Below, in pieces: positions 15,180 through 46,870 of a stretch of 64,000 bases of DNA (position 1 is the first letter of the stretch; each line of letters opens with the position of its first letter). The stretch is taken from contig NZ_JAHXBN010000028.1 in assembly GCF_019924045.1 (NCBI RefSeq), positions 62,001 through 126,000 of the forward strand, given 5' to 3'. Made by a program: the position numbers and the translations under genes. The stretch comes from Dyadobacter fermentans. GTDB taxonomy: Bacteria > Bacteroidota > Bacteroidia > Cytophagales > Spirosomataceae. The notes under the pieces are model-generated. The model was not told the origin of the DNA, searched no databases, and worked only from the letters and a program-made list of their open reading frames with translations.

Positions 15180-15656
15180 ATGGACAATACACCAGAATCA
15201 AACTTCGCCGCGCTTGGCCTCAGTCTTCCTCCTGCCCCGAAACCGGTCGGCGTCTACAAACCGTTATTGATCGTTGACAAGCGCTGGGTTTATGTTTCCG
15301 GACATGGTACGGTACAGGACGACGGCACGCTAATCATCGGACGCATCGGAAAAGACCTGAATGCAGATCAGGGTAAGCTCGCTGCGCGTCAGGTTGGTCT
15401 GGCAATCTTGTCCACGCTGAAAGCCAATCTCGGCAGCCTTAACCGCGTCAAAAGAGTGATCAAGGTACTCGGTATGGTGAACTGCACCGGCGATTTTGAA
15501 AAACATCCATTCATCATCAACGGATGCAGCGAGCTATTCGCAAAGGTTTGGGGTGAAGAAAACGGTATTGGAGTAAGAAGCGCCGTGGGGATGGGTACGC
15601 TACCCGACAACATTCCGGTCGAGATTGAGGCGATGTTTGAATTGGAAGAAAAGTAA
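15180..15656 (+). CDS. RidA-family protein (enamine/imine deaminase or related)
   Basis: The 158-residue product has the RidA (YjgF/YER057c/UK114) fold pattern, with YVSGHGTV at residues 38-45. R133 (GVRSAVGMGTLPDN) is at the place of the catalytic Arg of RidA, and acidic residues E148/E150 follow. RidA proteins hydrolyse reactive 2-aminoacrylate and other imines released by PLP enzymes. The length and the VRSAVGM form suggest the longer RidA-like subfamily rather than classical RidA. Its place next to a D-serine/D-threonine PLP enzyme fits removal of the reactive intermediate. A 10-bp-period repeat array starts 20 bp after the stop. Confidence 0.87.
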   Translation: MDNTPESNFAALGLSLPPAPKPVGVYKPLLIVDKRWVYVSGHGTVQDDGTLIIGRIGKDLNADQGKLAARQVGLAILSTLKANLGSLNRVKRVIKVLGMVNCTGDFEKHPFIINGCSELFAKVWGEENGIGVRSAVGMGTLPDNIPVEIEAMFELEEK

Positions 15657-15675
15657 TGAGCCTGAGGATGAAATA

Positions 15676-15814
15676 GTCAATTGTGGTCAGGAGTTGTCAG
15701 GTATTGTCAGAACGCCATTTAATGCATCCATGCCTGCACTTGACCACAAATGACTATACATGACAAAACTTGACCAATCCTTACCACATTTAACAATACC
15801 TGACCAATTCCTCA
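15676..15814 (+). repeat. Paired inverted 10-bp-period array between ridA-like and aldolase genes
   Basis: Left arm: GTCA at 15676, 15686, 15696 and 15706, each followed by six variable bases. Right arm: TGAC or one-base variants at 15741, 15751, 15761, 15771, 15781, 15791 and 15801, exactly 10 bp apart. The arms are inverted relative to each other around a 31-base spacer. The array fills the gap from the RidA stop to 17 bp before the next ATG. Confidence 0.85.
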
Positions 15815-15830
15815 CGCAAACCTGCATCAC

Positions 15831-16943
15831 ATGTCCTGGTACCTGCTCAACAATCCGGAGAAAGTAATTTCCCCGTCGCTCCTGTTCTATAAAGATCGCA
15901 TCGAAAGCAATATCCGGAGTATGATCAGCATCGCCGGCTCTTCGGAAAGGCTTGTGCCGCATGTCAAAACCCACAAATGCCCGGAGATTGTTGAAAAGCA
16001 ACTTTCAGCGGGTATTTCCAAGTTTAAATGTGCCACCATTGCCGAAGCCGAAATGGTGGCCGGCGCCGGTGCTCCGTGGGTATTGATCGCCTACCAACTT
16101 GTCGGCCCGAATATCGACCGGCTCTTCGCATTGCGCTCGAAATTTCCGAATACGACATTTGCCTCGCTTATCGACAACGAACAGACTGCGGCAGTACTCC
16201 ATGAAGCTTCCATTTCAAAGGGATTTCGCTCCAACGTGTTTCTGGACGTCAACAACGGTATGAACCGAACCGGCCATGCTACGGACGAGAGCCTGCTATC
16301 ACTTTATCGTTATGTGAGCAGCCTCGAAGGACTCGCATTCGGCGGTGTGCACATTTACGACGGACATATCCGCAATCCGGAATTTTCGGAACGCAAAGCC
16401 GCGGCCGATGAAGCCTATGAAAAAGTACTTCCGTTGCTCGACCGCATTGAAACCGAATGCGGCTACGAGCCGATGATCATCGTCGGTGGGTCGCCGTCTT
16501 TCACGGTGCACACGCTCCGGCCGGATGTTTACCTCAGTCCAGGCACGAATGTACTTTGGGACTGGGGCTATGGCGATCGGTTTGACGGCCAGCCGTTCGA
16601 ACACGCTGCGCTGATCCTGACGCGCGTTGTATCCAAACCCGCTCCGGGCATCGTCACGATAGACCTTGGCCACAAAGCCATTTCCGCCGAAAATCCAATC
16701 GAAAACCGCCTTCGTTTGCTCAACCTGCCCGAATACACATTGTTAGGCCAAAGCGAAGAGCACGGCGTGCTGCAAGTAAGTACCGATGCATGGGAAGCGA
16801 TCCAGATCGGCGACGTCTTCTACGCACTCCCCTACCACATTTGCCCGACCGTAGCACTGCACGATTTCGCGACGGTGATCGAGGACGGTAACGTCATGGG
16901 CGAATGGCGCATTACGGCGCGCAGCAGGCGGATAACGATTTAA
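15831..16943 (+). CDS. D-threonine aldolase/D-serine dehydratase-like PLP enzyme (alanine racemase N-domain type)
   Basis: The 370-residue product is a fold-type III PLP enzyme. The Schiff-base Lys is most likely K46 in LVPHVKTHK, the motif of D-threonine aldolase and eukaryotic-type D-serine dehydratase. The PLP-phosphate region is VGGSPSFT (residues 218-225). H336 and C338 (ALPYHICPT) match the metal ligands of the C-terminal domain of this family. It should cleave D-threonine-like beta-hydroxy-D-amino acids or deaminate D-serine; sequence alone does not choose. It lies between two 10-bp-period repeat arrays in a cluster with a GntP permease, RidA and a dipeptidase. Confidence 0.88.
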   Translation: MSWYLLNNPEKVISPSLLFYKDRIESNIRSMISIAGSSERLVPHVKTHKCPEIVEKQLSAGISKFKCATIAEAEMVAGAGAPWVLIAYQLVGPNIDRLFALRSKFPNTTFASLIDNEQTAAVLHEASISKGFRSNVFLDVNNGMNRTGHATDESLLSLYRYVSSLEGLAFGGVHIYDGHIRNPEFSERKAAADEAYEKVLPLLDRIETECGYEPMIIVGGSPSFTVHTLRPDVYLSPGTNVLWDWGYGDRFDGQPFEHAALILTRVVSKPAPGIVTIDLGHKAISAENPIENRLRLLNLPEYTLLGQSEEHGVLQVSTDAWEAIQIGDVFYALPYHICPTVALHDFATVIEDGNVMGEWRITARSRRITI

Positions 16944-16960
16944 CAAAACGGTCTGATGTT

Positions 16961-17086
16961 GTCATGGAAAGTCATGATATTGTCATGAAAGTCAGTATTG
17001 TCTTTTGTTGTACATGCCCTACTGACAAAGCCTGACTATACATGACCACACTTGACTATACCTGACCACAACTGACTATAAAGACC
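16961..17086 (+). repeat. Paired inverted 10-bp-period array between aldolase and dipeptidase genes
   Basis: Left arm: GTCA at 16961, 16971, 16982 and 16991, then the variants GTCT (17000) and GTAC (17010). Right arm: TGAC at 17023, 17033, 17043, 17053, 17063 and 17073, exactly 10 bp apart, then a decayed unit at 17083. The arms are inverted with only about 10 bases between them. The array starts 18 bp after a stop codon and ends 17 bp before the next ATG. Confidence 0.85.
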
Positions 17087-17102
17087 ATTCAACCATTAAC
17101 AT

Positions 17103-18173
17103 ATGTTCCTCTTCGACGCACACCTTGACCTCTCCATGAACGCCGTGGAATGGAACCGGGACCTTACCCAGGACCTGTATTCGATCCGCGACCGTGAAAA
17201 GAACCTCACAGACAAGCCCGACCGCGGTAAAGGCGTAGTGAGTTTTCCGGAAATGCGTAAAGGCAATATCGGGCTTTGCGTAGCTACGCAAATCGGCCGC
17301 TACATTAAACCCGACAGTAAAATCCCGGGCTGGCATTCACAAGCACAGGCATGGGCGATCACGCAAGCGCAGGTGGCATGGTACAAGGCCATGGAAGAAG
17401 CTGGCGAAATGGTTCAGATCACCGGGTTAGCCGGCCTCCGCAGCCATCTGGAATTGTGGCAGAATGCCGAATCGACCGAGGGCTTGCCTATCGGCTACAT
17501 TCTTAGCCTCGAAGGCGCCGACTCATTCGTAAGCCTCAAAAACCTCGAAACCGCTTATGGCTATGGCCTTCGCGCGATCGGGCCTGCACATTACGGCCCG
17601 GGCGTGTATGCGTACGGGACTGACTCTGACGCGCCGCTGAGCGAGAAAGGCAAAGACCTGCTCCGCGAAATGGACCTGCTCGATATGATCCTCGACGCGA
17701 CCCATTTGTGCGACACCGCATTCTGGGAAGCGATGGATTTGTACAAAGGCCCGGTTTGGGCGAGCCATAACCTTGTTCGCGCCATTACACCGCACAACCG
17801 ACAGTTTTCTGATGAGATGATCAAGGTCCTGCTGGAACGCGACGCCGTAATCGGCATGGCGTTTGATGCCTGGATGATGATCCCCGGCTGGATACGCGGC
17901 AAATCGACCCCCGAAAATACAGGGCTGAAAATTGAGCACGTTGTGCAGCATATCGATCATATTTGCCAGATCGCCGGCAACGCATTGCACGTCGGCATCG
18001 GCTCCGATCTGGACGGTGCATATGGCAAAGAGCAATCGCCGGGCGACCTGGACTCCATCGCCGACCTGCAAACGATCCCCGGGCTATTGGCCGCGCGGGG
18101 CTACTCTGCAAGCGATATCGAGCATATTATGTGGCGCAATTGGGTCAACTTTCTGGAAAGGAACTGGGCCTGA
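17103..18173 (+). CDS. Membrane dipeptidase-like enzyme (peptidase family M19)
   Basis: The 356-residue product has the full metal site of the renal dipeptidase family: H7 and D9 (FDAHLDLS), E137 (SLEGADSF), H201 (DATHLCD) and H222 (ASHNLVRAI), with GIGSDLDG near the C-terminus. M19 enzymes hydrolyse dipeptides, often with a D residue at the C-terminal position, and some act on N-acyl-D-amino acids. There is no signal peptide, so it acts in the cytoplasm. It is the last gene of the permease/RidA/aldolase cluster and is followed by a terminator, so it may release free D-amino acids for the aldolase. Confidence 0.9.
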   Translation: MFLFDAHLDLSMNAVEWNRDLTQDLYSIRDREKNLTDKPDRGKGVVSFPEMRKGNIGLCVATQIGRYIKPDSKIPGWHSQAQAWAITQAQVAWYKAMEEAGEMVQITGLAGLRSHLELWQNAESTEGLPIGYILSLEGADSFVSLKNLETAYGYGLRAIGPAHYGPGVYAYGTDSDAPLSEKGKDLLREMDLLDMILDATHLCDTAFWEAMDLYKGPVWASHNLVRAITPHNRQFSDEMIKVLLERDAVIGMAFDAWMMIPGWIRGKSTPENTGLKIEHVVQHIDHICQIAGNALHVGIGSDLDGAYGKEQSPGDLDSIADLQTIPGLLAARGYSASDIEHIMWRNWVNFLERNWA

Positions 18174-18249
18174 CGGCATTAGCCTACTATTTTGCAAGAA
18201 TTTATAAAATCTAATAAATTCTTAATATAGCAATAAAAGGAGTTTTCAG

Positions 18250-18290
18250 AAAAGCTTCGCAACTTGGTACCATGGTTGCGGAGCTTTTTT
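18250..18290 (+). terminator. Rho-independent terminator after the dipeptidase gene
   Basis: A 14-bp stem with one mismatch (AAAAGCTTCGCAAC at 18250-18263 with GTTGCGGAGCTTTT at 18275-18288) ends in a T-run. It closes the D-amino-acid cluster. Confidence 0.88.
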
Positions 18291-18319
18291 GTTTTTATCC
18301 AAATAAACACCTATTCTTA

Positions 18320-18351
18320 TTTGGAATCATTTTAAATAAACAATATCTTTG
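18320..18351 (+). promoter_or_regulatory. Bacteroidota-type promoter for the small HMA-like gene
   Basis: TTTG at 18320-18323 and TATCTTTG at 18344-18351 are separated by 20 bp, matching the Bacteroidota consensus TTTG, about 19-20 bp, TAnnTTTG. It lies 66 bp before the next start codon. Confidence 0.65.
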
Positions 18352-18417
18352 ACTTATTAAATCAACGATCTAAATCAGGTCGGTAACATCCGGCCGCTAA
18401 ATTTCAAGTAACGACCA

Positions 18418-18681
18418 ATGGCAAATACATATAAAATTTTCTTTCGGACGCATATCCAGGCCAGCAAGTCGCTGCAAAAGCTGCACGACTGCCTGAAACA
18501 ATTGAATGTAAAACACTGGGCCTATGATTTTCAGGATTTCCTCCTGACCCTGACCTCCGAACTACCCGATTTCACCCGTATCCAGCTTGCCCTGCGGTCA
18601 GCCGGCTACGTTTGCCACTTTATCAAGCTCGAAAACATGAATGAGAGCCGTTTGGACACCAACGGCCTAGCAATTGCATAA
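18418..18681 (+). CDS. Small protein resembling a heavy-metal-associated domain without the metal cysteines
   Basis: The 87-residue product has no clear family by recall. Its pattern (YKIFFRTHI, then a helix, VKHWAYDFQDFLLTLTSEL, a second helix and SAGYVC) follows the beta-alpha-beta-beta-alpha-beta order of HMA/copper-chaperone domains. The usual CxxC after the first strand is replaced by ASKSL. It has its own promoter and terminator, so it is probably a real single-gene unit. The HMA relation is inference; a regulator or scaffold role is only a possibility. Confidence 0.65.
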   Translation: MANTYKIFFRTHIQASKSLQKLHDCLKQLNVKHWAYDFQDFLLTLTSELPDFTRIQLALRSAGYVCHFIKLENMNESRLDTNGLAIA

Positions 18682-18718
18682 ACTGCTGACGTTTAACGGC
18701 TATCCATTCTCCTCTTGG

Positions 18719-18749
18719 GCAGTCATCGGCTTCCGGTGGCTGCTTTTTT
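18719..18749 (+). terminator. Rho-independent terminator after the small HMA-like gene
   Basis: An 11-bp stem with G-U pairs (GCAGTCATCGG at 18719-18729 with CCGGTGGCTGC at 18733-18743) and six T follow the stop codon by about 40 bp. Confidence 0.82.
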
Positions 18750-18765
18750 ATTGCACCTGTCTAGG

Positions 18766-19329: not shown

Positions 19330-19401
19330 GGGCGTTCGATACTTTGATATCGCAAAGTTGCACTTCCGTTTCCTTGAAATATTTGGTAAAAACCAACATT
19401 T

Positions 19402-19986: not shown

Positions 19987-20013
19987 AGAACCGCTAAAAT
20001 ACAAAAGCCCTTC

Positions 20014-22251: not shown

Positions 22252-22264
22252 AATATGCCCGAAA

Positions 22265-25085: not shown

Positions 25086-25086
25086 G

Positions 25087-27385: not shown

Positions 27386-27520
27386 AAGTTTAATGCTTGA
27401 AATGAAAGTTTGATAACTCACAGGACCAAAACTACAAATACCTCTGCCGCCTTACACTCAGAAATTCAAAAAGAATTCAGAATTCAGTGGTAGGTTCAGC
27501 GCCCGATACGGTACATTACC

Positions 27521-27550
27521 CCAACTGACACTACCTAACAAAACCTAACT
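27521..27550 (+). repeat. Decayed half copy of the 10-bp-period array before the LTA-synthase-like start
   Basis: TGAC (27525), TAAC (27535) and TAAC (27545) stand exactly 10 bp apart and end a few bases before the ATG at 27553. This matches the TGAC arm found in front of other genes. No inverted arm is clear. Confidence 0.5.
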
Positions 27551-27552
27551 AA

Positions 27553-29499
27553 ATGGATACTGCCACTCAGGGAGTTGAAACACCGAGCGTAATACGCTCA
27601 AAATCAGAATTTTTATCACGCCCTCTAATAATTACCCTGCTATTGATCGGCATCTCAATGCTGACACGCATCACCCTGATGCTGAAAGCCGGCAGCGGCG
27701 TCGATTACAGCATTACCAACATGCTCGGCATTTTCGGCATCGGCCTGTTTTATGATGTTCTCAATTCCCTGTACTTCCTTATCCCGGTCATGTTGCTTGG
27801 CTGGCTCACGCCCACCAGGTACGCGGGCAAAATAGGCTTCAAAGTAGCAGCCGGTATTTTGCTGTTTATCCTCCTGTTCCTGCTTTTGTTGAATGCCGTC
27901 TCCGAATGGGTATTCTGGGACGAATTCGGCTCGCGGTTCAATTTCATCGCCGTCGATTACCTGGTTTACACCCAGGAAGTGGTGGGCAATATCCGCCAGT
28001 CGTACCCGGTGGAAACGATCATCGGCATATTGCTCGTGCTCGCAGTGCTGCTGACAGTGCTGGTGTCGCGGCTATCCCGCCGGTTCGCTTTCGGGCAAAT
28101 GCGTTTCGGAAAGCGGTCGTTGGTTGTTGGCGTATACTTCCTGATCGTTACCACGGTTTTCCTGACTATCGACAACAAAGTCCGGCAGTTCAGCCGCAAT
28201 GTCTACGTCAACGAGCTGGCCGGGAACGGCATGTACGAGCTCTTTGCCGCATACCTCAACAACGAGCTGGATTACAACCAGTTTTATATCAAACTCGATG
28301 AACCGCAAGCGTCCTCAACCATAAGGTCACTGGTGAAAACGCCGGAAAGCCGCTTTATCGACAACAAACAGTTCTCCATTGAAAGAGATATTGTCAATAC
28401 CGGAGCCGAGCTGCACAAAAACATCATCCTGATCAGCGTTGAAAGCCTCAGCGCCGACTTCCTCGGGAGTTTCGGGAATACGCAGGGCATCACGCCCGCG
28501 CTCGATTCGCTGGCCCGCCAAAGCCTGCTATTTACCAACCTTTACGCTACGGGCACACGCACGGTCCGCGGGCTGGAAGCATTGTCGATATGTACACCGC
28601 CCACACCCGGCCAGTCTATCGTACGCCGGCCGCATAACGAAGGGCTCTTCTCCATGGGCAGCGTATTGCAAAGTAAAGGTTATCAGACCCGCTTCCTCTA
28701 CGGCGGCTACGGGTACTTCGATAATATGGGCTACTTCTTCGGCCATAACAGTTACGGCGTCGTCGACCGGACTGCCCTTTCCAAAAAGGAGATTGACTAT
28801 GAAAACATCTGGGGTGTTGCCGACGAAAACCTTTTTGAGCTGGCCACCCGTGAAATCGGCTCCGCGTCGAAGACCGGCAAACCCGTTTTCGCCCACATCA
28901 TGACCACGTCCAATCACCGTCCCTACACCTATCCCGAAGGTCGGATCGATATCCCCTCGCACACCAGCCGCGAAGGCGCCGTGAAATATACCGATTTCGC
29001 GATAGGCCAGTTCATCCGCAATGCGCGAAACCAGCCGTGGTTCAAAAACACGCTGTTCATCATCGTGGCCGACCATTGCGCGTCCAGCGCCGGCAAAACC
29101 GACCTGCCGGTTAACAAATACAAAATCCCGTTGATGATGTACGCTCCGGGATTTATCGAACCGGGCGTGATGCCGAGGCTCATGAGCCAGATCGATATCG
29201 GGCCGACGGTACTGGGTCTGCTCAATTTCTCCTATCGCAGCAAATTTTTCGGATATGATATTTTCAAACTCGAACCCGGCCGCGAGCGGGCATTTGTGAG
29301 CACCTACCAAAGCCTCGGATACATCAAGCACGACTCGCTGATCGTGCTGAAACCGCAACGAATTGCCGCTACCTTCACGCCAAACTTTACAGATGGCTCT
29401 ACCACGCCGGCCTCTCAAAACGCGCATTTACTCGACGAAGCCATTGCCTGGTACCAGAGTGCTAGTTTTCAGTTCAGGAATGGCCTGATGAAAAAATAG
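27553..29499 (+). CDS. LTA synthase-like membrane sulfatase/phosphoglycerol transferase
   Basis: The 648-residue product has about five membrane helices in the first 210 residues and an extracytoplasmic alkaline-phosphatase-superfamily domain after residue 285. The metal ligand is E297 (SVESLSADFLGSFG), the nucleophile Thr is most likely T337 (YATGTRTVRGLEA), and NHRPY and VADHCAS supply later ligands. LtaS and OpgB move phosphoglycerol from phosphatidylglycerol to lipoteichoic acid or periplasmic glucans. A Gram-negative with no LTA would use it on another glycan or lipid; the acceptor is unknown. A decayed repeat array lies at its start codon. Confidence 0.88.
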   Translation: MDTATQGVETPSVIRSKSEFLSRPLIITLLLIGISMLTRITLMLKAGSGVDYSITNMLGIFGIGLFYDVLNSLYFLIPVMLLGWLTPTRYAGKIGFKVAAGILLFILLFLLLLNAVSEWVFWDEFGSRFNFIAVDYLVYTQEVVGNIRQSYPVETIIGILLVLAVLLTVLVSRLSRRFAFGQMRFGKRSLVVGVYFLIVTTVFLTIDNKVRQFSRNVYVNELAGNGMYELFAAYLNNELDYNQFYIKLDEPQASSTIRSLVKTPESRFIDNKQFSIERDIVNTGAELHKNIILISVESLSADFLGSFGNTQGITPALDSLARQSLLFTNLYATGTRTVRGLEALSICTPPTPGQSIVRRPHNEGLFSMGSVLQSKGYQTRFLYGGYGYFDNMGYFFGHNSYGVVDRTALSKKEIDYENIWGVADENLFELATREIGSASKTGKPVFAHIMTTSNHRPYTYPEGRIDIPSHTSREGAVKYTDFAIGQFIRNARNQPWFKNTLFIIVADHCASSAGKTDLPVNKYKIPLMMYAPGFIEPGVMPRLMSQIDIGPTVLGLLNFSYRSKFFGYDIFKLEPGRERAFVSTYQSLGYIKHDSLIVLKPQRIAATFTPNFTDGSTTPASQNAHLLDEAIAWYQSASFQFRNGLMKK

Positions 29500-37784: not shown

Positions 37785-39269
37785 CTATTGATTCAGATTC
37801 GGGTTAATCGAAGTATCGGTGTAAGGCAGCGGGAACCAGTAATTCGCTTTCACGATCGGCTTAATCGGCTGCAAATCATCGGTGCTTTTCTTGGCGTTGG
37901 CTTCCTCCACCTTTTCCAGGCGTACCAGGTCGAACCAGCGTGTGCGCTCGCAAGCGAACTCCCACGCGCGCTCCTGCACGACCTCGTCGGCAAACTGCGC
38001 GGCGGTAAGGCCATCACCGGGTGTCAATGCTTTCGTACCTGCTGCACGTCCGCGCAAACGCACCTTGTTCAGGGCATCATAAGCCGCCTGGTCGGGGCCG
38101 CCGGTTCCGCGGGCTTTGGCTTCGGCGTAGATGGTCAGCACGTGCGGGTAACGCATCATCACCGAAGGCAGCGAAATGCTCGATGTCACGATATTGCCTT
38201 TAATGTACCATTTCTGGTAGTAGGGATGTTTCGTCAAACTGTTTTGCCAGGGAATTTTTGTGGCGCCTAACCCGAATTCCGTCCGGAAAGTAGCATCCTT
38301 ACGGGGCCCTGCCGGGAAATCGCGGAAGAAATTCAGCTCCGCAAACATATCGTCCCAGCCGCCTTCCTCACCGGGCATGGTGGTATTGCCATAGGTCGCA
38401 TTCGCCGTGCCGCTTCCGCCGAGATAACCGCTGATCTGGAACACCGCCTCTTTCGTACCCGGCGACGCAGGATCGTTTTCAAAAACCGCCGCGAAAGTCG
38501 GCAACAGTTCAAAGCCGTAGGTAGCCGCATTGTCGATCACCTCTTTGGCTTTGGCGGCAGCCAGGTCGTATTTATCCGTCTGTTTCAAAGGCCAGCCAGC
38601 CATTGTCAGGTACACGTCCGCGAGGAACGCCTTGGCCGAACCCTTGTTGGGCCGTCCCGGGTCGCGTTTTGCATTCGGCAAATTGGTTTCCGCCACTTTC
38701 AAATCCGCCACGATCAGGTCGTAGACTTCCTGCGGCGTCGATTTTTTGACAGTCAGCAAATCATCGGAATACTCACCAGCCATGATCAACGGAATGTTGC
38801 CCCAGAAGCGCGTCAGCCAGTAATACGAAAACGCGCGGATGAAGTGCGCCTCGCCCACGATGATGTCGATTGTCGCTTTGGTACCCACCGTTTTCTGGTA
38901 GTTGTTAATCACATTATTCGCTCCCTGAATGGCCTTGTAGCAGCCATTATAAACTGCATTGGAACGCTGGTTGGTAGTCGACACATTAAACTGGTCGAAC
39001 TCCCGCCAGTCGGCCTTGTTACTGGCCGGGTGCGTAGTAACATCATCCGCACCCAGCACAGCCGCATTGGCCGATGGGTGTAAAAAGCCGTACGTCCATT
39101 GGTTGGCGAGGCCCTTGTAAGCCCCGGTCAATGCCGATTCGAGGCCGTCCTGTGTCGAAAGCACATTAGGCCCGTACAAAAGCCCGGTTGTATCCTCATC
39201 CAGGTAATCACTGCAACCGGCTCCCGTCAGAAGCAGGCCGCTTAAAAGAAGTATGGTTAGTTTTTTCAT
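37785..39269 (-). CDS. SusD/RagB-family surface lipoprotein of the galactonate block
   Basis: The 494-residue product has a lipoprotein signal (TGAGC, Cys19) and SusD-family blocks: FIRAFSYYWLTRFWGNIPL, YLTMAGWPLKQ and ERAWEFACERTRWFDLVRLEK near the end. It is the partner of the SusC gene upstream, but 250 bp separate them instead of the usual 10-40; that gap is filled by heptamer repeats. It probably binds a galactose-containing glycan or free sugar, judged only from the downstream genes. Confidence 0.94.
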   Translation of the reverse strand: MKKLTILLLSGLLLTGAGCSDYLDEDTTGLLYGPNVLSTQDGLESALTGAYKGLANQWTYGFLHPSANAAVLGADDVTTHPASNKADWREFDQFNVSTTNQRSNAVYNGCYKAIQGANNVINNYQKTVGTKATIDIIVGEAHFIRAFSYYWLTRFWGNIPLIMAGEYSDDLLTVKKSTPQEVYDLIVADLKVAETNLPNAKRDPGRPNKGSAKAFLADVYLTMAGWPLKQTDKYDLAAAKAKEVIDNAATYGFELLPTFAAVFENDPASPGTKEAVFQISGYLGGSGTANATYGNTTMPGEEGGWDDMFAELNFFRDFPAGPRKDATFRTEFGLGATKIPWQNSLTKHPYYQKWYIKGNIVTSSISLPSVMMRYPHVLTIYAEAKARGTGGPDQAAYDALNKVRLRGRAAGTKALTPGDGLTAAQFADEVVQERAWEFACERTRWFDLVRLEKVEEANAKKSTDDLQPIKPIVKANYWFPLPYTDTSINPNLNQ

Positions 39270-39281
39270 TGGTGAAAATTT

Positions 39282-39337
39282 TATGCTTTAAGCTATATGC
39301 TTCAAGCTATATGCTTTAAGCTATATGCTGTAAGCTG
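39282..39337 (-). repeat. Heptamer array, arm next to the susD start
   Basis: Eight exact 7-bp units alternate between TATGCTT-type and TAAGCTA-type sequences without a single indel. The arm begins 13 bp upstream of the SusD start codon. It is the inverted partner of the array at 39402-39506. Confidence 0.85.
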
Positions 39338-39401
39338 CGCGTTTCGCGACAGCAGGTGTTTGAATTTCTATTTAAACTACATGGCAGAGAATCAGAGCTT
39401 T

Positions 39402-39506
39402 TGCCTAAGGCTTATAGCTTACAGCTTATTGCTTATTGCTTATAGCTTACAGCTTATTGCTTACAGCTTATTGCTTACAGCATATAGCTTACTGCCTACT
39501 GCCTAA
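39402..39506 (-). repeat. Heptamer array, arm next to the susC stop
   Basis: Fifteen exact 7-bp units of AGCTTAC, AGCTTAT, TGCTTAC and close variants run without indels and end 13 bp from the SusC stop codon. It is inverted relative to 39282-39337 with a 64-base spacer between. Confidence 0.88.
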
Positions 39507-39519
39507 GGCCTCTAAAGCC

Positions 39520-42510
39520 CTAAAACCCGAGCGTCAACCCAACCGTATACACCTTCGCATTCGGGTAAGAACCGCGGTCGATACCGATGGCTGTATCCGT
39601 GCTGGAACCCACGTTGCTGGTTTCCGGGTCCGGACCGGAGTATTTGGTGATCGTGAACAGGTTGGTAGCGCTCGCGAAAATGCGGATGTTGGCCTTGTCC
39701 CTGAAAACCGATGACGGCACATTGTAAGCCAGGCTCACGTTTTTCAGCCTTACAAAACTGCCGTTCTCCACAAACCGGCTCGACTGTGTAAATGGCTGGT
39801 AGGTTTTGGTAAATGCCGGGATATCCGAATCGGTATTGCCCTCGCGGTAGTAATCGCGGATCTCCGTGAGCAGGAACTGGCGCGCCTCGCCCGAGCCCGA
39901 CATCGCGCCGGCGCGGGTGTAGTTCAGCTTATCCACGTCAAATGCGCCCTGGAAGAACACGTTCAGCGTGAGACCGCCATAAGTAAAGGTGTTATTCCAA
40001 CCGCCGGTCAATTTCGGGAACGCATGGCCGACAATCTGAAAATCGTCCGTCGTGATGGCATTATCGCCGTTCACGTCCTCATAATGAGGGTCTCCCGGCA
40101 CGCGGCCTTGCTTCGCAGCGATATCGGCTTCATCAGGTTTGAAAGTACCAAGGTATTTGAGGCCCCAGTAGGAGCCCAGCGGCTGGCCCGGCATGAGCAT
40201 AAACTCGTTGGTGATAGACATCCCGCCTCCTGCACCCGTTCCGGTCCCAAGCCGTGGCAACCCGCCCAGGCTCACCACCTCGTTTTTCAGTGTAGAAAAA
40301 TTCAGGTTCGTTTCCCAGCTGAATTTCCCCTTTTCGATAGGCGTACCACCGATCGCAAACTCGAATCCGCGGTTCCTGATCTCTCCCACGTTGCGCGGCT
40401 GTGTACCACCGCCGGCGTAGTTGGGCAGCTGCACGTTCAACAGCAAATCGGTCGTGCTCTTGTTGAAGTAATCCGCTTCGAAATGCAGGCGGCCGTTCAG
40501 GATTTCCATTTCGATACCCACATCGGTTTGTGTGGTCGTCTCCCATTTCAGGTTCTTGTTGCCCTGGTTACCTTGAATGACCCCCGCCGTCACGCCGGTA
40601 TTATTGAAACCAACCTGCGTAGAGTTGTACGGCGACAGTGTCGCGTAAGGGTTAATGGCCTGGCTACCGGTTTTACCCCAGCTTCCGCGCAATTTCAGGT
40701 TAGAAAACACATTGAGATTCTTGATGAACTCCTCCTCCGAAAGCCGCCAGCCCAATGCAACCGAAGGAAAAATACTGTTCCGGTTGTCCTCGCTGAACTT
40801 CGACGAACCATCGCGACGGATCGCCGCGGTTACCAGGTATTTGTCTTTGAATGCATAATTCACGCGTCCCAGCAACGAGAGCAGCGTCCATTTCGAAAAG
40901 CCGGAACTGACAGTCGCGGCCGAGTTGCCGCCGATGTTATCATAACCCAGCTGCGGAAAACGCAGACCGTTGGCCGTTGCCGTAAAGTTCTTGTCCGTAA
41001 ACTGCTGGGTTTCCAATACTGCCACAGCCGTAATCGAGTGATTCCCGAATGTACGGGTGTAGTTCAGTGCATTGGTATTCTGCAAAGTCACCTGGTCGGC
41101 CGAGTAGCGGGTTGCATTTGGGTTGTTGTTTGAAAGGCGCTTGCCGTTGAAGTTCTTGTTCTGCGCGTCGAGGTAGTTGATCGCATACTGCAAGTCGAGC
41201 GAAAGGCCATTAATGGGCAGTTGATAGGTTAATCCGCCAATCGCATTGATATTCATGCGCTCAGTGTCGATCGACTTGTCGTACAAATGATCCAGCGGGC
41301 TTCTTGAAACCGAACCGATCGGGTCCGCGAATGTCGGCTGACCGTCCGAGCCGTACGCCGGCGTGGTAGGTGCCCATTGCAGTGCTTCTATCAGCGCACC
41401 GCCGCCGTCGGTATTGTGGTTGGCGGTTTTGGCACCTGACAGATTGAGCCGCAATGCCAGATTCTTATTGATTTGCGTACGCAGGTTGGTTCTCAAAACA
41501 TACCGTTTGAAACCGCTGTTGTTCACGATCCCTTTCTGGTTCACGTAGTTGCCGGAGATCAGGAAGGAGGTCTTCTCGTTCCCGCCCGAAACCGTCACCT
41601 GGTGCTGCTGGCCGCTTCCCTTACGGTAAACGAGGTCCTGCCAGTCGGTGCCGCCATTCTTCTTGAAATCATCGATCTGCGCTTGTGTAAACGGGGCATT
41701 GGAGCCGGTAGCAGCGGCACGCGCGTTCACGATCTCAGCAAATTCTCCCGCAGGCAGGATATCGAACTTCTTAATCACATTCGAAACGCTTCCCTGCCCT
41801 TCATAGCTCACTTTTATTCCTTTGCTACCCTTTTTTGTCGTGATGATAATCACCCCGTTGGCACCCCGGCTACCGTAAATGGAGGTCGAAGCCGCATCTT
41901 TCAGCACTTGCAGCGATTCGATATCGTTGGGGTTCAACAAATTGTAGTTAGCACCCACAAAACCATCGATCACATAAAGCGGATCATTATTACCCAGCAC
42001 GGAGTTCGCCCCACGAACGCGCACTTTCGAATCTCCGCCCGGCGCGCCGTTCGATTGCGTCACCTGCACACCCGCCGCACGCCCCTGTAACACCTGATCG
42101 AGGCGGGTAACGGGCTGCTGCGAGAACTCCCGAGTCGAAACCACCGACAACGCACCGGTAACATCGGTTTTCTTTTGGGTACCATACCCTACCACCACCA
42201 GTTCATCGAGGCTCCGCGAACCCTGCGCCAGTTTAATATCAATGACCGATCGGTTGCCGATCTCTACCGTCTGACTTTCATAGCCGATAAACGAAAACAC
42301 CAGCGTACCGCTTCCCGGCGCCTGGATCACGTAATTCCCCTCCCCGTCTGTCACGGTACCCTGCGAGGTGCCGCTGATCAGGATGCTTACGCCAGGCAGC
42401 GCCGCATTGTCCTGGTCCGTCACTTTTCCGGTCACCCTGGCGTTCTGGGCAAGCAAACTTCCGCCACCCAGGCCGAGCAAAACCAAGCATAAACTCAGTA
42501 ATTTTTTCAT
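39520..42510 (-). CDS. SusC/RagA-family TonB-linked outer-membrane transporter of the galactonate block
   Basis: The 996-residue product has a signal peptide (ending LLAQN), a carboxypeptidase-regulatory-like domain (ARVTGKVTDQDNAALPGVSILISG), the TonB box region LDELVVVGYGTQKK, a plug (VRVRGANSVLGNNDPLYVIDGFVG) and a barrel ending in KVYTVGLTLGF. With the SusD protein it imports a ligand in a TonB-driven way. It is flanked on both sides by inverted heptamer arrays of two different sequence families. Length is normal for the family. Confidence 0.96.
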   Translation of the reverse strand: MKKLLSLCLVLLGLGGGSLLAQNARVTGKVTDQDNAALPGVSILISGTSQGTVTDGEGNYVIQAPGSGTLVFSFIGYESQTVEIGNRSVIDIKLAQGSRSLDELVVVGYGTQKKTDVTGALSVVSTREFSQQPVTRLDQVLQGRAAGVQVTQSNGAPGGDSKVRVRGANSVLGNNDPLYVIDGFVGANYNLLNPNDIESLQVLKDAASTSIYGSRGANGVIIITTKKGSKGIKVSYEGQGSVSNVIKKFDILPAGEFAEIVNARAAATGSNAPFTQAQIDDFKKNGGTDWQDLVYRKGSGQQHQVTVSGGNEKTSFLISGNYVNQKGIVNNSGFKRYVLRTNLRTQINKNLALRLNLSGAKTANHNTDGGGALIEALQWAPTTPAYGSDGQPTFADPIGSVSRSPLDHLYDKSIDTERMNINAIGGLTYQLPINGLSLDLQYAINYLDAQNKNFNGKRLSNNNPNATRYSADQVTLQNTNALNYTRTFGNHSITAVAVLETQQFTDKNFTATANGLRFPQLGYDNIGGNSAATVSSGFSKWTLLSLLGRVNYAFKDKYLVTAAIRRDGSSKFSEDNRNSIFPSVALGWRLSEEEFIKNLNVFSNLKLRGSWGKTGSQAINPYATLSPYNSTQVGFNNTGVTAGVIQGNQGNKNLKWETTTQTDVGIEMEILNGRLHFEADYFNKSTTDLLLNVQLPNYAGGGTQPRNVGEIRNRGFEFAIGGTPIEKGKFSWETNLNFSTLKNEVVSLGGLPRLGTGTGAGGGMSITNEFMLMPGQPLGSYWGLKYLGTFKPDEADIAAKQGRVPGDPHYEDVNGDNAITTDDFQIVGHAFPKLTGGWNNTFTYGGLTLNVFFQGAFDVDKLNYTRAGAMSGSGEARQFLLTEIRDYYREGNTDSDIPAFTKTYQPFTQSSRFVENGSFVRLKNVSLAYNVPSSVFRDKANIRIFASATNLFTITKYSGPDPETSNVGSSTDTAIGIDRGSYPNAKVYTVGLTLGF

Positions 42511-42574
42511 GGATTATTTATAGTTGAACGTTGTTAAATTCTATTTTATCAAAATATGAATATACTATTCCAAT

Positions 42575-42616
42575 ATCGACCGCCGACCATAGACCGCCGA
42601 CCGCCGATTGCTTGAC
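42575..42616 (-). repeat. Heptamer array (GCCGACC type), arm next to the susC start
   Basis: Six 7-bp units (GCCGACC, ATAGACC, ATCGACC and variants; the last is decayed) lie 65 bp upstream of the SusC start codon. It is inverted relative to 42687-42728. Confidence 0.8.
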
Positions 42617-42686
42617 ATTAATCGTTAGGTTTTATCTCACCTGGTTTTTCGTTGAGCCGACAAACAACTGCCCGCCGCTCCTAATA

Positions 42687-42728
42687 TGCGATCGGCGGTC
42701 AGCCGTCGGCCGTCGGCGGTCCATGGTC
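42687..42728 (-). repeat. Heptamer array (GGCGGTC type), arm next to the dgoD-like stop
   Basis: Six 7-bp units (GGCGGTC twice, AGCCGTC, GGCCGTC, CATGGTC and one decayed) lie 27 bp from the stop of the galactonate dehydratase-like gene. A 70-base spacer separates it from its inverted partner. Confidence 0.8.
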
Positions 42729-42754
42729 AATTCCCCAATCGATACCGTACCGCC

Positions 42755-44002
42755 CTACCAATCCACTACCGAACCGTCCAGCGAGTTGTAACTCTCCGGA
42801 TTCTTCCAGTCGTGGCCGATTTTGTCCTTCAATGCATCTTCGTCAAGCTCTACACCCAGGCCGGGTTTGGTAGGCACCATTACGGTCCCGTCTTTTTGTA
42901 GTTTGAATGGTTCTTTGAGATAGCCTTCACCCAGCGTAACCTGCTCCTGCACGAGGAAATTGGGCACGCTGGCAGCCAGTTGGAGGCCAGTAGCAAGTGA
43001 AATCGGGCCCATCGGGTTGTGCGGGGCAATGGGGATGTAATAGGCTTCGGCCATTCCCGCGATGATCCTGCCTTCGGTAATACCGCCTGCGTGGCATAAA
43101 TCAGGCTGGATGATGCTGGCTGCACCTTTTTCGAGGATTTCCCGGAAACCCCATTTGGTAAAGATCCGCTCGCCCGTCGCGATGGGAATATGCGTGCCTC
43201 TTGCAATGTCTACAAGTGTGTCCACATTCTGTGCCTGGCAGGGTTCCTCCACGAAAAACGGTTGATATTGCTCCAATTCCTTGATCAATACCTTGGAAGT
43301 CTGCTGTGGAACAGACCCGTGAAAATCAATGGCGATATCCATTTCCGGGCCACCGGCTTCGCGCAATGAGGCAAAATTGTCGGACGCATATTTGATGAAT
43401 GCCGGATTCTCAACAATGTTCGCCGGGTTCTTTTTGGCAACGCCGGTTTTAATGATCGTATAGCCCTCGGCTTTCCGTTTCTTCATGTCCTCCGCGTTCG
43501 ATGCGCGCCCATATATACGCACGCGGTCGCGGGTCGGCCCGCCCAGGAGCTCGTGCACGGGTACGCCCAGGAGCTTGCCTTTAATGTCCCACAATGCCTG
43601 ATCGATACCGCTTAACGCGCTCGTGAGGATCGGACCGCCCCGGTAGAACGCATGGCGGTAAATCGCCTGCCAGTGATGCACCACCGCCCGCGGGTCCTTG
43701 CCGACGAGGTATGGTTCCACTTCCTTGATCGCCGTTTGGATCGTCAGCGCACGGCCTTCCAGCAATGGCTCCCCGAGGCCCACAATGCCGGCGTCGGTAT
43801 GGATTTTAAGAAAAATCCAGCGCGGCTTCACCAAAAACGTTTCCAGCTTGGTGATCTTGACCTTTCCATACGCCTGAAATGGCGCCGGATTGGCTGCATA
43901 CGAAGTTTTGGGCAGCAGCATTGTGCCTGCCGCCGCAACGCCCAGAACGGATTGAATAGCCGCCCGGCGCGACAATGCGGTAGATTTCGGGTTAGGTTTC
44001 AT
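42755..44002 (-). CDS. Exported galactonate dehydratase-like enolase-superfamily enzyme
   Basis: The 415-residue product resembles D-galactonate dehydratase (DgoD): VKITKLETFLVKPRWIFLKI, RGGPILTSALSGIDQALWDIKGK and the metal ligands D226 (AIDFHGS), E252 (FFVEEP) and E278 (ATGERIF), with catalytic-type H228 and H328 (APHNP). DgoD converts galactonate to 2-keto-3-deoxygalactonate, the substrate of the kinase encoded downstream. A Tat-type leader (SRRAAIQSVLGVAAAGTMLL) suggests export, unlike enterobacterial DgoD. The neighbour 4 bp upstream is a second family member. Confidence 0.87.
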   Translation of the reverse strand: MKPNPKSTALSRRAAIQSVLGVAAAGTMLLPKTSYAANPAPFQAYGKVKITKLETFLVKPRWIFLKIHTDAGIVGLGEPLLEGRALTIQTAIKEVEPYLVGKDPRAVVHHWQAIYRHAFYRGGPILTSALSGIDQALWDIKGKLLGVPVHELLGGPTRDRVRIYGRASNAEDMKKRKAEGYTIIKTGVAKKNPANIVENPAFIKYASDNFASLREAGGPEMDIAIDFHGSVPQQTSKVLIKELEQYQPFFVEEPCQAQNVDTLVDIARGTHIPIATGERIFTKWGFREILEKGAASIIQPDLCHAGGITEGRIIAGMAEAYYIPIAPHNPMGPISLATGLQLAASVPNFLVQEQVTLGEGYLKEPFKLQKDGTVMVPTKPGLGVELDEDALKDKIGHDWKNPESYNSLDGSVVDW

Positions 44003-44006
44003 GGGA

Positions 44007-45248
44007 TTACCAGTTATGGATGGAACCGTCCGGACTTTTCAGGATCGGATGCGGAAATTTGGTTTTCTCTTTGACCTCCATGATGAAAGTCGCCTTTTTC
44101 GGATCAAATTTCACCCCCAGTCCGGGCGCGTCGTTGAGATACAGTTTACCGTTTTTGAAATTGATAAAATCCTCGTTGAAATACGGCGGCCGCTCCGGTT
44201 CACCTCCGCCGAGTTCCATCAACGCCCGCGCAGGGCTGCTGGAACCAAGTACATGCACCAATGTCGCCGTCGCGAGCGGGCCGGTGAAATGCGGTATCAT
44301 GCCTACGTAATGCGTTTCGCACATCGACGCCAGTTTCTTGAACTCGCTGATGCCGCCCGTGTTCGGTAATGTAAACCGAGTGTAGTCGATCCAGCGGTTT
44401 TCGATAAACTCGTTGCAATCCCAGCGGTCGCCGAACTGCTCGCCCACGGCAATGGGCACCTTGGTCATCGAGCGCACGGTTTTGTACACCGAAGGATTCT
44501 CCGAGCGGATAATGTCCTCCACGAAATACGGTTCGAGCGATTCGAGGGCGGTACAGATTTTCAAGCCGTCGGTCATATCAAAACGGGTGTGCAGATCGAT
44601 GGCCCATTTGCCTCCTCCGCCCACGGCGTCGTCGATCCTTTTGCAGAACTCGATCGTCTTTTTCACGTTCTCATAAAAATCGAACGGCTGATCGCCGTTA
44701 CCGCCCGTCGGGCCGATACGGTAGGCCCTCAGCCCTGCTTCAATGCAATCTCTCGCTCTTTCCTCTTCGGTTTTGGCTTTCGAGGCGCGGAAACCGGTGG
44801 CATAGCATTCCACATAATCGCGCGTGGCGCCGCCGAGCAACTCGTACACCGGCACATTCAGCGCCTTGCCTTTAATATCCCAAAGCGCCATTTCCAATGC
44901 ACCCAATGCATGCAGCTTCTCGCGGCCCGGCGGATAAAACATCCCGCGGTAGACGTTCTGCCAGATATGCTCGATACGGAACGGGTCCTCCCCGATCATC
45001 ATCTGCGCGCATTGCTCAATCATATCTTTCGAGCCGCCCTCGCCGATGCCGATAATGCCGCCATCGGTTTCGATCTCAACAATGCCGCGGGCCTGGTTGA
45101 AAAGCGGTTTGTTATATCCAGGCGCGGCGTAGTAGCGGATCTTGGTAATCTTCATTTTGGAAGCCGCCTCGGCCTTTATCAGCGGAAAGCCGGTGGCGAC
45201 GGCGGCGGTGCCTAGGAACGCTGTTTTTATAAAATTTCTTCTTCTCAT
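44007..45248 (-). CDS. Exported mandelate racemase/enolase-superfamily dehydratase
   Basis: The 413-residue product has a Tat-type leader (MRRRNFIKTAFLGTAAVATG) and the enolase-superfamily metal site D218 (AIDLHTRF), E244 (FVEDI) and E270 (VGEQFG), with H320 (IPHFTGP) as probable acid/base. It is clearly related to, but distinct from, the DgoD-like gene 4 bp downstream. It probably dehydrates another sugar acid; I cannot name it. A long 10-bp-period array begins 14 bp upstream of its start codon, leaving little room for a normal leader. Confidence 0.85.
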   Translation of the reverse strand: MRRRNFIKTAFLGTAAVATGFPLIKAEAASKMKITKIRYYAAPGYNKPLFNQARGIVEIETDGGIIGIGEGGSKDMIEQCAQMMIGEDPFRIEHIWQNVYRGMFYPPGREKLHALGALEMALWDIKGKALNVPVYELLGGATRDYVECYATGFRASKAKTEEERARDCIEAGLRAYRIGPTGGNGDQPFDFYENVKKTIEFCKRIDDAVGGGGKWAIDLHTRFDMTDGLKICTALESLEPYFVEDIIRSENPSVYKTVRSMTKVPIAVGEQFGDRWDCNEFIENRWIDYTRFTLPNTGGISEFKKLASMCETHYVGMIPHFTGPLATATLVHVLGSSSPARALMELGGGEPERPPYFNEDFINFKNGKLYLNDAPGLGVKFDPKKATFIMEVKEKTKFPHPILKSPDGSIHNW

Positions 45249-45262
45249 TAGTGTTTCGTTTG

Positions 45263-45474
45263 GTCAGGTATTGTCAGATGTGGCGATTGTGGTCAGGTAT
45301 TGTCATTTGTGGTCATTGGTGGTCAGGAGTTGTCATTTGTGGTCAGGGAAAAGTCAGGTATTGTCATTTGTGGTCAGGTGTTGTCAAGTGTAGTCAAGAG
45401 TTGTCAGGGAAAAGTCAGGTATTGCCATTTATGGTCATGGGGAGTCAGGAGTTGTCATTTGTGGTCAGGAATTG
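45263..45474 (-). repeat. Long 10-bp-period GTCA array before the enolase-superfamily gene
   Basis: About 21 GTCA (or one-base variant) cores recur over 212 bp, nearly all exactly 10 bp apart; two 11-bp steps and one 19-bp gap over a decayed unit shift the register. The six bases between cores often alternate GGTATT and TTTGTG, giving a 20-bp super-unit. The array starts 14 bp from the start codon of the minus-strand gene. Confidence 0.92.
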
Positions 45475-45794
45475 TGTGTTGTTGAATTCGTTGCTTCATG
45501 TTTTTTCTATTCCGTTGCAATAAACCGGGGCTACGAGAGCGGCGTTATTCGATATTCTTAGCCGTTGCTAGAAAACACGAGGCTCCTCCGGAGCCGCTAC
45601 CGCGCCGGATTAGGTTACTACATTGCCCCGGAGGGGCTTCCTGTTTATAGCAAATCAAGCAAGGCTTACAGTTCTACGACACCGGAGGAGTCCCCTGCGC
45701 CCACCGTCAACATCCCGTCAAGTCACAGGCTTTCAATCCCCTCTCTCCAAGCCCCAAAAAAGCCCCGATTCCCGAACCTACACTACTACCCCAA

Positions 45795-45828
45795 TGACTA
45801 CTCTTGACTACACATGACAACACCTGAC
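45795..45828 (-). repeat. Short inverted arm of the GTCA array after the lacI-type gene
   Basis: TGAC at 45795, 45805, 45815 and 45825 is exactly 10 bp apart, inverted relative to 45263-45474, and ends a few bases from the stop codon of the LacI-type gene. Confidence 0.8.
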
Positions 45829-45832
45829 CACC

Positions 45833-46870
45833 CTACCGGCCCACCGCCGTCGGTTTAGCCTTTGACGACTCCCGGGCGATCAGCCTGGCTTCCATTAATA
45901 TCTGCTTCACACCTTCCTCGGGATTTTTCAGTTTCGTCAATAAGAACTCAACAGCCGTTTTACCCAGCATTTCCAACGGCTGCTGCACGTAAGTGATCGG
46001 GCAATAATACAGGTCGAAAACCTCCGCCTGACCGTAGCTGACGATCGCCAGGTCGGACGGCACTTTGAGGCGCAGCTCATTGATATATTTTAATGCATTG
46101 ATAGCCAAACCATAAGTCGCAAAAATCATCGCGTCCACGCGCTGCCCGGAGGCCAGTATTTCGTCAATCGCCGTCCGTACTTCGCTGTCCATCGTTTCAA
46201 AATGCACCTCTTTCAACCAGGAATCGTGAAACTCGATGTGGTTATCGCGCAACGCATGCTTGTAGCCGCGCACACGTTCTTCCATATGGTACATATTCGA
46301 TTTGTAGGCCATGATCCCGATCTTCGAATAGCCGCTTTGAATGAGGTGAACCCCGGCGTCGTAAGAAGCCTTATAGTTGTTGGTAGCGACGAAATCGGTT
46401 TGTATTTCCGGAAAATGGCGGTCCAGCAACACGAATGGAATATTCCGCTCTTTGAGATAATGCACCTGACTTTCGGAGCCTTCGCAGGAGACAATGATGA
46501 AGCCGTCGACCTGCCGGTTGATCAGCACATTGAGCAAATCCCACGATTTCTCGGCATGCTCGTCGCAGCTGCCGATGATCACGGTGTAGCCGTTTTTTTT
46601 GGCCTCATCCTCCACCACACGTGCGATGTTGGCGAAGAACGGGTTGGAAATGTCGGCGATGATGAGCCCGATGGTGTACGTCTTGCCACTCCGGAGGCTT
46701 TTGGCCAGGTGGTTGGGCTGATAGTTCAATTCCTTGGCTATCTGCCTGATTTTCTCAGCAATGGCCTCCCCCACCCTGGTCTCTTTCTCTTTACCATTGA
46801 GGACATACGAAACCAGGGCCGTGGAGACGCCCGCCTGCTGTGCAATATCTTTGAGCGATGCTTTTTTCAT
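45833..46870 (-). CDS. LacI/GalR-family transcriptional regulator
   Basis: The 345-residue product has the LacI HTH and hinge (SLKDIAQQAGVSTALVSYVLNGKEKETRVGEAIAEKI, then LNYQPNHLAKSLRSGKTYTIGLI) and a periplasmic-binding-protein-like effector domain. The start overlaps the stop of the mannonate-dehydratase-like gene by 4 bp (46867-46870), so it is the last gene of the susC-susD-dehydratase operon. Perfect palindromes with a central CG or GC upstream of that operon are likely operators, giving autoregulation with a sugar-acid or sugar effector. Confidence 0.94.
   Translation of the reverse strand: MKKASLKDIAQQAGVSTALVSYVLNGKEKETRVGEAIAEKIRQIAKELNYQPNHLAKSLRSGKTYTIGLIIADISNPFFANIARVVEDEAKKNGYTVIIGSCDEHAEKSWDLLNVLINRQVDGFIIVSCEGSESQVHYLKERNIPFVLLDRHFPEIQTDFVATNNYKASYDAGVHLIQSGYSKIGIMAYKSNMYHMEERVRGYKHALRDNHIEFHDSWLKEVHFETMDSEVRTAIDEILASGQRVDAMIFATYGLAINALKYINELRLKVPSDLAIVSYGQAEVFDLYYCPITYVQQPLEMLGKTAVEFLLTKLKNPEEGVKQILMEARLIARESSKAKPTAVGR

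Follow-up and report, generated by a model that had tools for sequence, protein, structure and literature searches.

Paired inverted short-period repeat arrays between genes of Dyadobacter and their possible role as transcript-end hairpins

The 64,000-nt stretch of Dyadobacter fermentans DNA analyzed here (the window; the host genome, G000, comprises 8.0 Mb over 173 contigs) carries paired arrays of short-period repeats between neighboring genes, in the order stop codon, direct arm, spacer, inverted arm and start codon. This layout had been described at five junctions in an initial annotation, and two short-period arrays in inverted order were indeed seen at all five. The arrays are real, genome-wide and non-random, and they fall into several families that differ in period and core and that appear to have replaced one another at orthologous slots. 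We tentatively favor, with a probability of roughly 0.42, the reading that arrays clamped by a short common core could act as hairpins at transcript ends, in a manner resembling repetitive extragenic palindromic (REP) sequences.

Repeat Families and Their Distribution

In the host genome, the triplet GTCA-N6-GTCA-N6-GTCA has 415 forward and 421 reverse matches (836 overlapping matches), while the reversed pattern, used as a control, has 0 + 0; the arrays are genome-wide and beyond chance. At least one match was found in 37 of the 48 genus genomes and at least 10 in 34/48. Outside the genus, 8/101 other relatives have one to six matches each, and the GTCA pattern is nearly limited to Dyadobacter. 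A scan of named genomes listed at least 80 loci with the pattern; the four of these that match on both strands belong to D. beijingensis, D. luticola, D. jiangsuensis and Dyadobacter sp. CECT 9623.

When contig C9 (1,097,600 bases) was scanned for short periods, 93 segments were obtained, of which 66 lie between genes; shuffled sequence yielded 2 (before merging). Assigned by eye, these segments represent at least six families, namely GTCA-N6 (period 10), GAC-N4 (7), TAAGC-NN (7, the AAGC family), GAGTTTA-like (7, the AGTT family), GAATGA-NN (8) and purine GGAGGAAAG-like units (9, 16), with GCCGAAA (period 7) as a rare extra family. The AAGC and AGTT families may be related, because their units differ at few bases. 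The units had been described as exactly 7 or 10 bp long; both periods are present, but 9- and 11-nt steps occur and families of period 8 and 9 exist. In total, 158 of 198 arms lie in gaps and 40 in open reading frames (ORFs), 28 of the latter being purine or GAC arms. Nesting of one family within another, seen by eye at C9 150110, 762962, 977713 and 1038421, was set aside, since a count under a strict threshold gave 0/65 fully nested pairs.

The TGAATGAN octamers are spread more widely. They have at least 10 matches in 26/48 genus genomes, also occur in further genera of the family and order (56/149 genomes in all, part of the matches outside the genus being plain TGAA repeats), and were found in 11 of 395 genomes sampled from the phylum, host included. 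The outer end of octamer arrays is AATTTT in 29/72, and in the octamer slots that we read (L212, L215, L216, L328 and others) the TAA of the stop codon stands on one side and AAAATTAA precedes ATG on the other. A gap in G005 (L331) contains GTCATTGG-like units of period 8, which in both core and period stand between the GTCA and octamer families.

Placement and Arm Order

With gaps delimited by a simple longest-ORF gene caller, arms were found in 24/84 convergent (28.6%), 43/351 co-directional (12.3%) and 10/167 divergent (6.0%) gaps of at least 80 nt (convergent vs. divergent, p = 2.4e-6; co-directional vs. divergent, p = 0.03). Full pairs in these gaps number 15, 27 and 3, respectively. Over all gap lengths, convergent gaps are still enriched relative to divergent ones (29/188, 15.4%, p = 0.003). 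The initial annotation had named equal frequency at convergent and divergent junctions as the outcome that would count against its proposal, and this did not occur (24/84 vs. 10/167). Within the co-directional gaps that carry at least two arms (n = 31), the array starts at a median of 8 nt past the stop codon and ends at a median of 23 nt ahead of the start codon, lying nearer the stop in 25/31.

The fixed polarity relative to genes that had been claimed, with GTCA always after the stop and TGAC always before the start, is a consequence of inverted symmetry and is uninformative on direction: GTCA...TGAC has the same form on both strands, so gene direction is unreadable from paired arms. For the same reason, whether orientation is random relative to gene direction is undecidable for paired arms, while unpaired GTCA arms in co-directional gaps are 2 sense and 2 antisense. 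Only the in/out order of the cores is informative. Across six families on C9 and 620 kb of C17 (1.72 Mb), "+ then -" was the order in 60/70 neighboring same-family pairs, where "+" is the orientation that usually comes first in each family, so that the count measures consistency within families and not a rule across them. By family, the order holds for 14/15 GTCA, 15/18 GAC, 8/14 AAGC, 3/3 AGTT, 4/4 octamer and 16/16 purine pairs; six of the 10 exceptions belong to the AAGC family, whose reversed-sequence control yields many chance arms (14 vs. 36). A "+ then -" pair was also present in 6/6 Dyadobacter loci checked out of the 80 listed. A G-rich-first rule common to all families was ruled out, as the left arms of the GAC family are C-rich (G 0.28, C 0.40) and those of the AAGC family are neutral.

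Core Conservation and Predicted Folding

Seven gaps picked for GTCA arrays in both species (the first two junctions of the window and five gaps on C9) were aligned between G000 and its close relative G018. Skipping positions in alignment gaps, the GTCA core was identical at 204/207 positions (98.6%), the variable unit positions at 227/299 (75.9%), the rest of the gaps at 767/917 and the 60-nt gene ends at 771/838. Counted in the same way over three gaps, G000 and G011 share 80/83 core, 88/125 variable, 180/223 remaining and 327/360 gene-end positions. Because periodic alignment favors core matches, interior core slots were counted as well; 162 were intact and 10 broken, 8 of the latter through one change.

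The variable positions leave little trace of copying between neighbors. With the longest arm excluded, neighboring units have 3.15 of 6 variable bases alike, vs. 3.06 between arms and 3.08 expected from composition, and units at lags 2-4 have 3.21-3.39 alike; with the longest arm included, lag 2 rises to 3.59 and lag 4 to 3.98, which points to copying in blocks of 20 and 40 bp, and four-unit block duplications are present in contig C35 of the host. Plain slippage therefore fits badly, since the 4-nt core is kept and there is little trace of unit-by-unit copying. Of the replication-slippage origin that had been suggested, unit-by-unit slippage is thus unsupported as the main source, while block copying is visible in long arms. 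In one case (gap 123 of C9), the center of an element looks inverted by eye between G000 and G018.

The hairpin potential of the arms, which had been proposed from their layout, is supported by predicted folding. For elements of up to 320 nt, median z values against dinucleotide shuffles are -4.2 for GTCA (16 elements), -6.7 for GAC (20), -3.8 for AAGC (6), -5.7 for AGTT (5), -4.3 for purine (11) and -9.2 for octamer (2) elements. In the predicted structures of 14 GTCA elements, core bases are 85% paired vs. 50% of variable bases, and 85% of the partners of core bases are themselves core. Moreover, 11 of these 14 are less stable than versions with hexamers redrawn from the family (p = 0.007), the largest deviation coming from one element (C9 828987); this resampling used 14 of 17 elements, leaving out one longer than 330 nt and two in which an arm had been joined wrongly. 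In our preferred reading, then, the elements would be imperfect hairpins clamped at their cores, in which shifts of register are tolerated and perfect palindromes avoided. Long perfect palindromes are unstable in DNA, and the avoidance may reflect such instability, or the loss of such elements from draft assemblies.

Slots and Family Replacement Across Species

The comparison of orthologous junctions with and without arrays, which had been put forward as a check, shows that other species carry other families or none. For the slot between the RidA-family and aldolase-like genes of the window, loci were available from 30/48 genus genomes: GTCA arrays are present in G000 and G018, octamer arrays or remnants in 18 (calls set by eye, at least five of them one-sided or remnant, i.e., G038, G009, G015, G042 and G034) and neither in 10, 7 of which have 0-7 nt between the genes. 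In a tree of the two upstream genes, the octamer-bearing G003 adjoins G000 and G018 (97/95) within octamer-bearing species, with the G000-G018 pairing itself at 92/62 and some deeper forks weak. Since G000 and G018 nest among octamer-bearing species, parsimony suggests that GTCA replaced octamers in their lineage.

A second slot (C9:212611-214653; 30/48 species, families named by eye) holds GTCA arrays, purine arrays (G037, G012), AGTT arrays (G017) or octamers (such as in G035 and G046), as well as hybrids that combine a left arm of the GTCA or purine type with octamers on the right (G003, G038, G043, G041, G021, G006), and it is nearly empty in G002 (5 nt) and G008 (14 nt). In G044 (L330), a long near-perfect REP-like palindrome, CCTGAGCGGAGTCGAAGG...CCTTCGACTCCGCTCAGG, stands where others hold arrays, and a similar palindrome lies in G018 in the gap orthologous to C9:368800.

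Altogether, family swaps were seen at the RidA-aldolase slot, at C9 gaps 90 and 219, and at C9 212611-214653. The claim that architecture is shared, not sequence, is strengthened by these orthologous junctions that hold different families. Among the 272 C9 gaps with a G018 ortholog, 8 hold the same family, 2 different families, 4 an array in G000 only, 3 in G018 only (two of these three carry inserted DNA of more than 1 kb) and 255 neither, so most arrays stay put between nearest relatives and swaps are a minority there; the same-family assignments for gaps 213 and 259 are based on few units and could be coincidental. The 204 gaps scored against G011, with two gaps containing masked bases excluded, comprise 4 with the same family, 1 different, 6 in G000 only, 1 in G011 only and 192 with neither. 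Paralogous slots also exist within one genome: the host region C9:987484-1050203 encodes about twenty MacB/FtsX-like permease paralogs (two checked by Pfam), and the junctions of this cluster carry purine arrays at several places, GAC arrays at two and a GTCA array at one.

Sources of the arrays were also sought. No donor was recognized for the RidA-slot array (G000, G018, G003); the best-scoring match, 80% over 87 nt, is indistinguishable from other arrays of the family, and shorter matches reach 96% over about 27-34 nt. Dispersal of whole elements was rejected, as 61 elements gave only six short loop matches (15-29 nt), some within arms. Their flanks gave 47 matches; 40 of these were viewed and, apart from a few short ones, resemble repeat arms or paralogous genes. 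A search for a common loop among 20 GAC elements found none, with one 8-mer common to two.

Proposed Role and Rival Explanations

We propose that each pair would fold imperfectly into a hairpin right behind the stop codon, both in the transcript and, potentially, in DNA when single-stranded. With every unit bearing a common short core (GTCA against TGAC), the arms could pair in any register, and because of this shared core, units might be gained or lost without loss of the hairpin. A mutation in the core would break pairing in all registers and be purged, the other six positions would drift, and very complete pairing would be avoided. Such a hairpin may act like an intercistronic REP or bacterial interspersed mosaic element (BIME), either shielding the upstream message from 3'-to-5' decay or tuning the flow to the next gene, and at convergent gaps its effect would run both ways. 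Family swaps, we propose, could then occur because any family of the same layout could do the job.

Several results weigh against this proposal. GTCA arms of the same element pair worse than arms taken across elements (mean -28.8 vs. -32.8, p = 0.001; 17 elements, including two in which an arm was joined wrongly), as do purine arms (p about 0.001); AAGC arms give p = 0.03-0.06 in this comparison and AGTT arms are neutral. The GAC family shows the opposite, with same-element arms pairing better (p = 0.02-0.04). Co-evolution of base pairs between arms is thus seen for GAC only, because the other families pair no better within elements, and co-evolving arms as a general rule are ruled out, the effect being reversed in the GTCA and purine families. 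Across species, folding at the two slots is not better than in array-free gaps (median z -2.5 vs. -1.6, p = 0.17; 48 sequences of at least 40 nt, array-free ones included, vs. 80 array-free co-directional gaps), and 5/6 hybrid slots (GTCA or purine left, octamer right) have z above -2. The excess of co-directional over divergent gaps vanishes when all gap lengths are taken (56/788, 7.1%, vs. 12/202, 5.9%, p = 0.64), and the core-conservation figure leans upward, as a periodic array aligns core to core.

Further, a core fixed over many loci suits a sequence-specific binder equally well, and a core-binding protein is the main rival of the transcript-end hairpin, although we consider it unlikely. 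Here, a putative DNA- or RNA-binding protein would read the core of each unit, the inverted arms would load it on both sides, and hairpins would be a by-product; in the 10-bp family the cores would lie on one face of the DNA helix, as 10 bp is about one helical turn. The GTCA core is far better conserved than the rest of the unit, the exact triplet recurs in 37/48 genus genomes, and arms of one GTCA element show no co-evolution, all of which agree with such a platform. However, other families, with periods of 7, 8 and 9, have cores of their own and would call for several different binders, and outside arrays the unit motif shows no clear enrichment (325 occurrences on C9 and C17, i.e., 0.037 per GTCA, where permuted cores average 0.032 and reach 0.040 at most). 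About as improbable as the binder, in our estimate, is the view of the slots as interchangeable hairpin cassettes, in which selection acts on the layout of two short-period arms that are clamped by a shared core yet kept imperfect, and the family is replaced fast, by units that already differ, without a near-identical donor or a link to Y1 transposases having been found. Should selection act on layout and not on sequence, the slots would be a natural experiment on the minimal sequence need of a regulatory RNA structure, and such selection, if true, would explain how unrelated repeat families come to fill the same intercistronic position.

Somewhat less probable still is a neutral or selfish origin, whereby slippage, block duplication and template switching act in tolerant gaps and placement merely reflects avoidance of promoters and genes. 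It would account for the four-unit block duplications in C35, for the 20-bp rhythm of the longest arm and for the apparent inversion of one element's center (G000 vs. G018, by eye), and promoter avoidance would also deplete divergent gaps; yet neighboring units are hardly more alike than units across arms (3.15 vs. 3.06) while the core is kept, arm order is fixed within families, and the same families recur at unrelated loci. The arrays may also serve to test ideas on how short-period repeats arise in bacteria. Movement by a Y1 transposase (REP-associated tyrosine transposase, RAYT), as for REP or REPIN (REP doublets forming hairpins) elements, seems very improbable: inverted doublets with a spacer and placement at gene ends are found in both, as described in the cited parts of the REP literature (PMC3733652, PMC3116915), and Y1 genes occur in 47/48 genus genomes, but Y1 copy number is unlinked to array number in what is a weak test (Spearman 0.20, p = 0.16 for GTCA; -0.22, p = 0.13 for octamers), the 61 elements have no common loop or end, only the six short loop matches given above, and downstream of the single Y1 gene that was inspected (C9:176887-177354) lies a palindrome of another kind. 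That gene (PF01797; L039:16887-17354) precedes CCGTCGACTTAAGTCGACGG-like palindromes, and REP-like repeats thus coexist with the arrays in the host. Ordinary intrinsic terminators are the least credible alternative and highly improbable; the convergent bias and the hairpin potential fit them, but no stem-plus-T-run hit lies on any arm at the five window junctions, and the hits, two of which fall between the arms of the LacI junction, are about as many (3 and 11) as in shuffled sequence (2.8 and 8.3). In the annotation of genomes from this group, arrays able to form hairpins should be expected in such gaps.

Relation to Known Repeats

Cyanobacterial short tandemly repeated repetitive (STRR) sequences are short tandem intergenic heptanucleotide repeats, and the Dyadobacter arrays resemble them in that; STRR heptamers are not known to form pairs of inverted arms. 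DNA uptake sequences, with their various dialects, are short motifs with species variants and inverted pairs at gene ends. They differ in that the Dyadobacter unit motif, on C9 and C17, has no clear excess beyond the arrays, and an uptake-signal reading was set aside on that ground.

The closest likeness is with Xanthomonas, for which GGGAATC arrays with variable positions, (GGGANTN)n, were described in 2015, along with GGGGA(C/T)T arrays in Nostoc (PMC4692102). The initial annotation took the element to be undescribed as far as it knew; heptamer arrays paired in inverted order and placed in the same way are in fact known from Xanthomonas, and the architecture is therefore not new (PMC4692102). 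As in Dyadobacter, the Xanthomonas units are short, with fixed and variable positions, and mainly intergenic; 70 and 75 convergent pairs were reported there, with slots usually kept and length changing, and in both groups convergent pairs lie near stop codons and are rare between divergent genes, a likeness that is weaker over all gap lengths (PMC4692102). Most of the Xanthomonas arrays are transcribed, and transcripts start or stop more often at the quadruplex-forming ones, the authors being unable to identify a role (PMC4692102). By contrast, one G-quadruplex-forming family, most often with 4 units, was studied per organism in Xanthomonas and Nostoc, whereas several families with different periods coexist and swap in Dyadobacter, and the cited sections describe no slot replacement for Xanthomonas (PMC4692102). 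Judged by reading, the consensus units GTCA-N6, GAC-N4, TAAGC-NN and GAATGA-NN have no G runs, and the purine family is G-rich; intrastrand triplex repeats (PMC4666352) are a conceivable parallel for the latter. No description of such arrays in Dyadobacter was found in the open-licence library searched, in which we also found no report of coexisting families with replacement at one slot; as far as these searches go, this would be the new part.

REP, BIME and REPIN elements share with the arrays the inverted repeats with a spacer, the hairpin potential and the preference for convergent and unidirectional gaps, but REPs are, in the cited parts of those studies, fixed-sequence palindromes tagged by GTAG or CGTC (PMC3733652, PMC3116915). 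Each Dyadobacter arm is instead a tandem array, no common end or loop was found among the elements (a frequent outer end, AATTTT, being seen in the octamer family alone), and Y1 gene number is unlinked to them. The TAACTGA heptamers of Beggiatoaceae, Cyanobacteria and five Bacteroidetes likewise form intergenic arrays, but these are direct, in the main genome mostly sit immediately ahead of start codons, and include 1 inverted case among 170 sets in the cited part of that study (PMC4679880).

Junctions and Genes of the Window

On the plus strand, a RidA/YjgF-family gene (15180..15656; PF14588, 46.7 bits) is followed by the RidA-aldolase junction (15657-15830), in which four GTCA-N6 units of 10 bp (left arm, 15676..15715, plus strand) precede a TGAC arm (15735..15808, minus orientation) with some units decayed towards its 3' side. 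The aldolase-like gene (15831..16943, plus strand; Ala_racemase_N, PF01168, and D-ser_dehydrat, PF14031) is separated by 16944-17102 from a dipeptidase gene (17103..18173, plus strand; Peptidase_M19, PF01244), and this junction contains one GTCA arm (16961..17000, plus) and one TGAC arm (17017..17076, minus).

The other three junctions are read on the minus strand. Past the stop codon of a LacI-family gene (45833..46870; PF00356, PF00532), the LacI-enolase junction (45249-45832) holds 4 GTCA units (45794..45828, minus), a spacer of about 320 nt and an arm of about 20 units that reads TGAC on the minus strand (45261..45469, plus), ahead of an enolase-superfamily gene (44007..45248, minus; MR_MLE, PF13378 and PF02746). 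A second gene of this superfamily (42755..44002, minus; MR_MLE, PF13378 and PF02746), called DgoD-like earlier, precedes the enolase-SusC junction (42511-42754) with its GACNNNN / NNNNGTC heptamers; the left arm is at 42692..42721 (minus), and the right arm, GTC in minus-strand reading, at 42577..42607 (plus). Between the SusC-like TonB-dependent receptor (39520..42510, minus; PF00593, PF07715, PF13715) and the SusD-like gene (37785..39269, minus; PF14322, PF07980), the junction at 39270-39519 has TAAGCNN / NNGCTTA heptamers, with TAAGCNN units at 39410..39505 (minus) and, in minus-strand reading, GCTTANN units at 39282..39336 (plus).

Rfam 15 families gave 0 matches above the gathering score in the window. 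The spacer of the LacI junction contains, at 45480-45700, a GC-rich palindromic stretch, CCTCCGGGG and GGCTCCGGAGGAGCC, near CTATAAACAGG; the latter recurs in the gap C9:302350-302718 and is probably a further dispersed repeat. A possible decayed lone right arm (TGACACTACCTAACAAAACCTAAC) lies at 27520-27552, immediately before the gene that starts at 27553.

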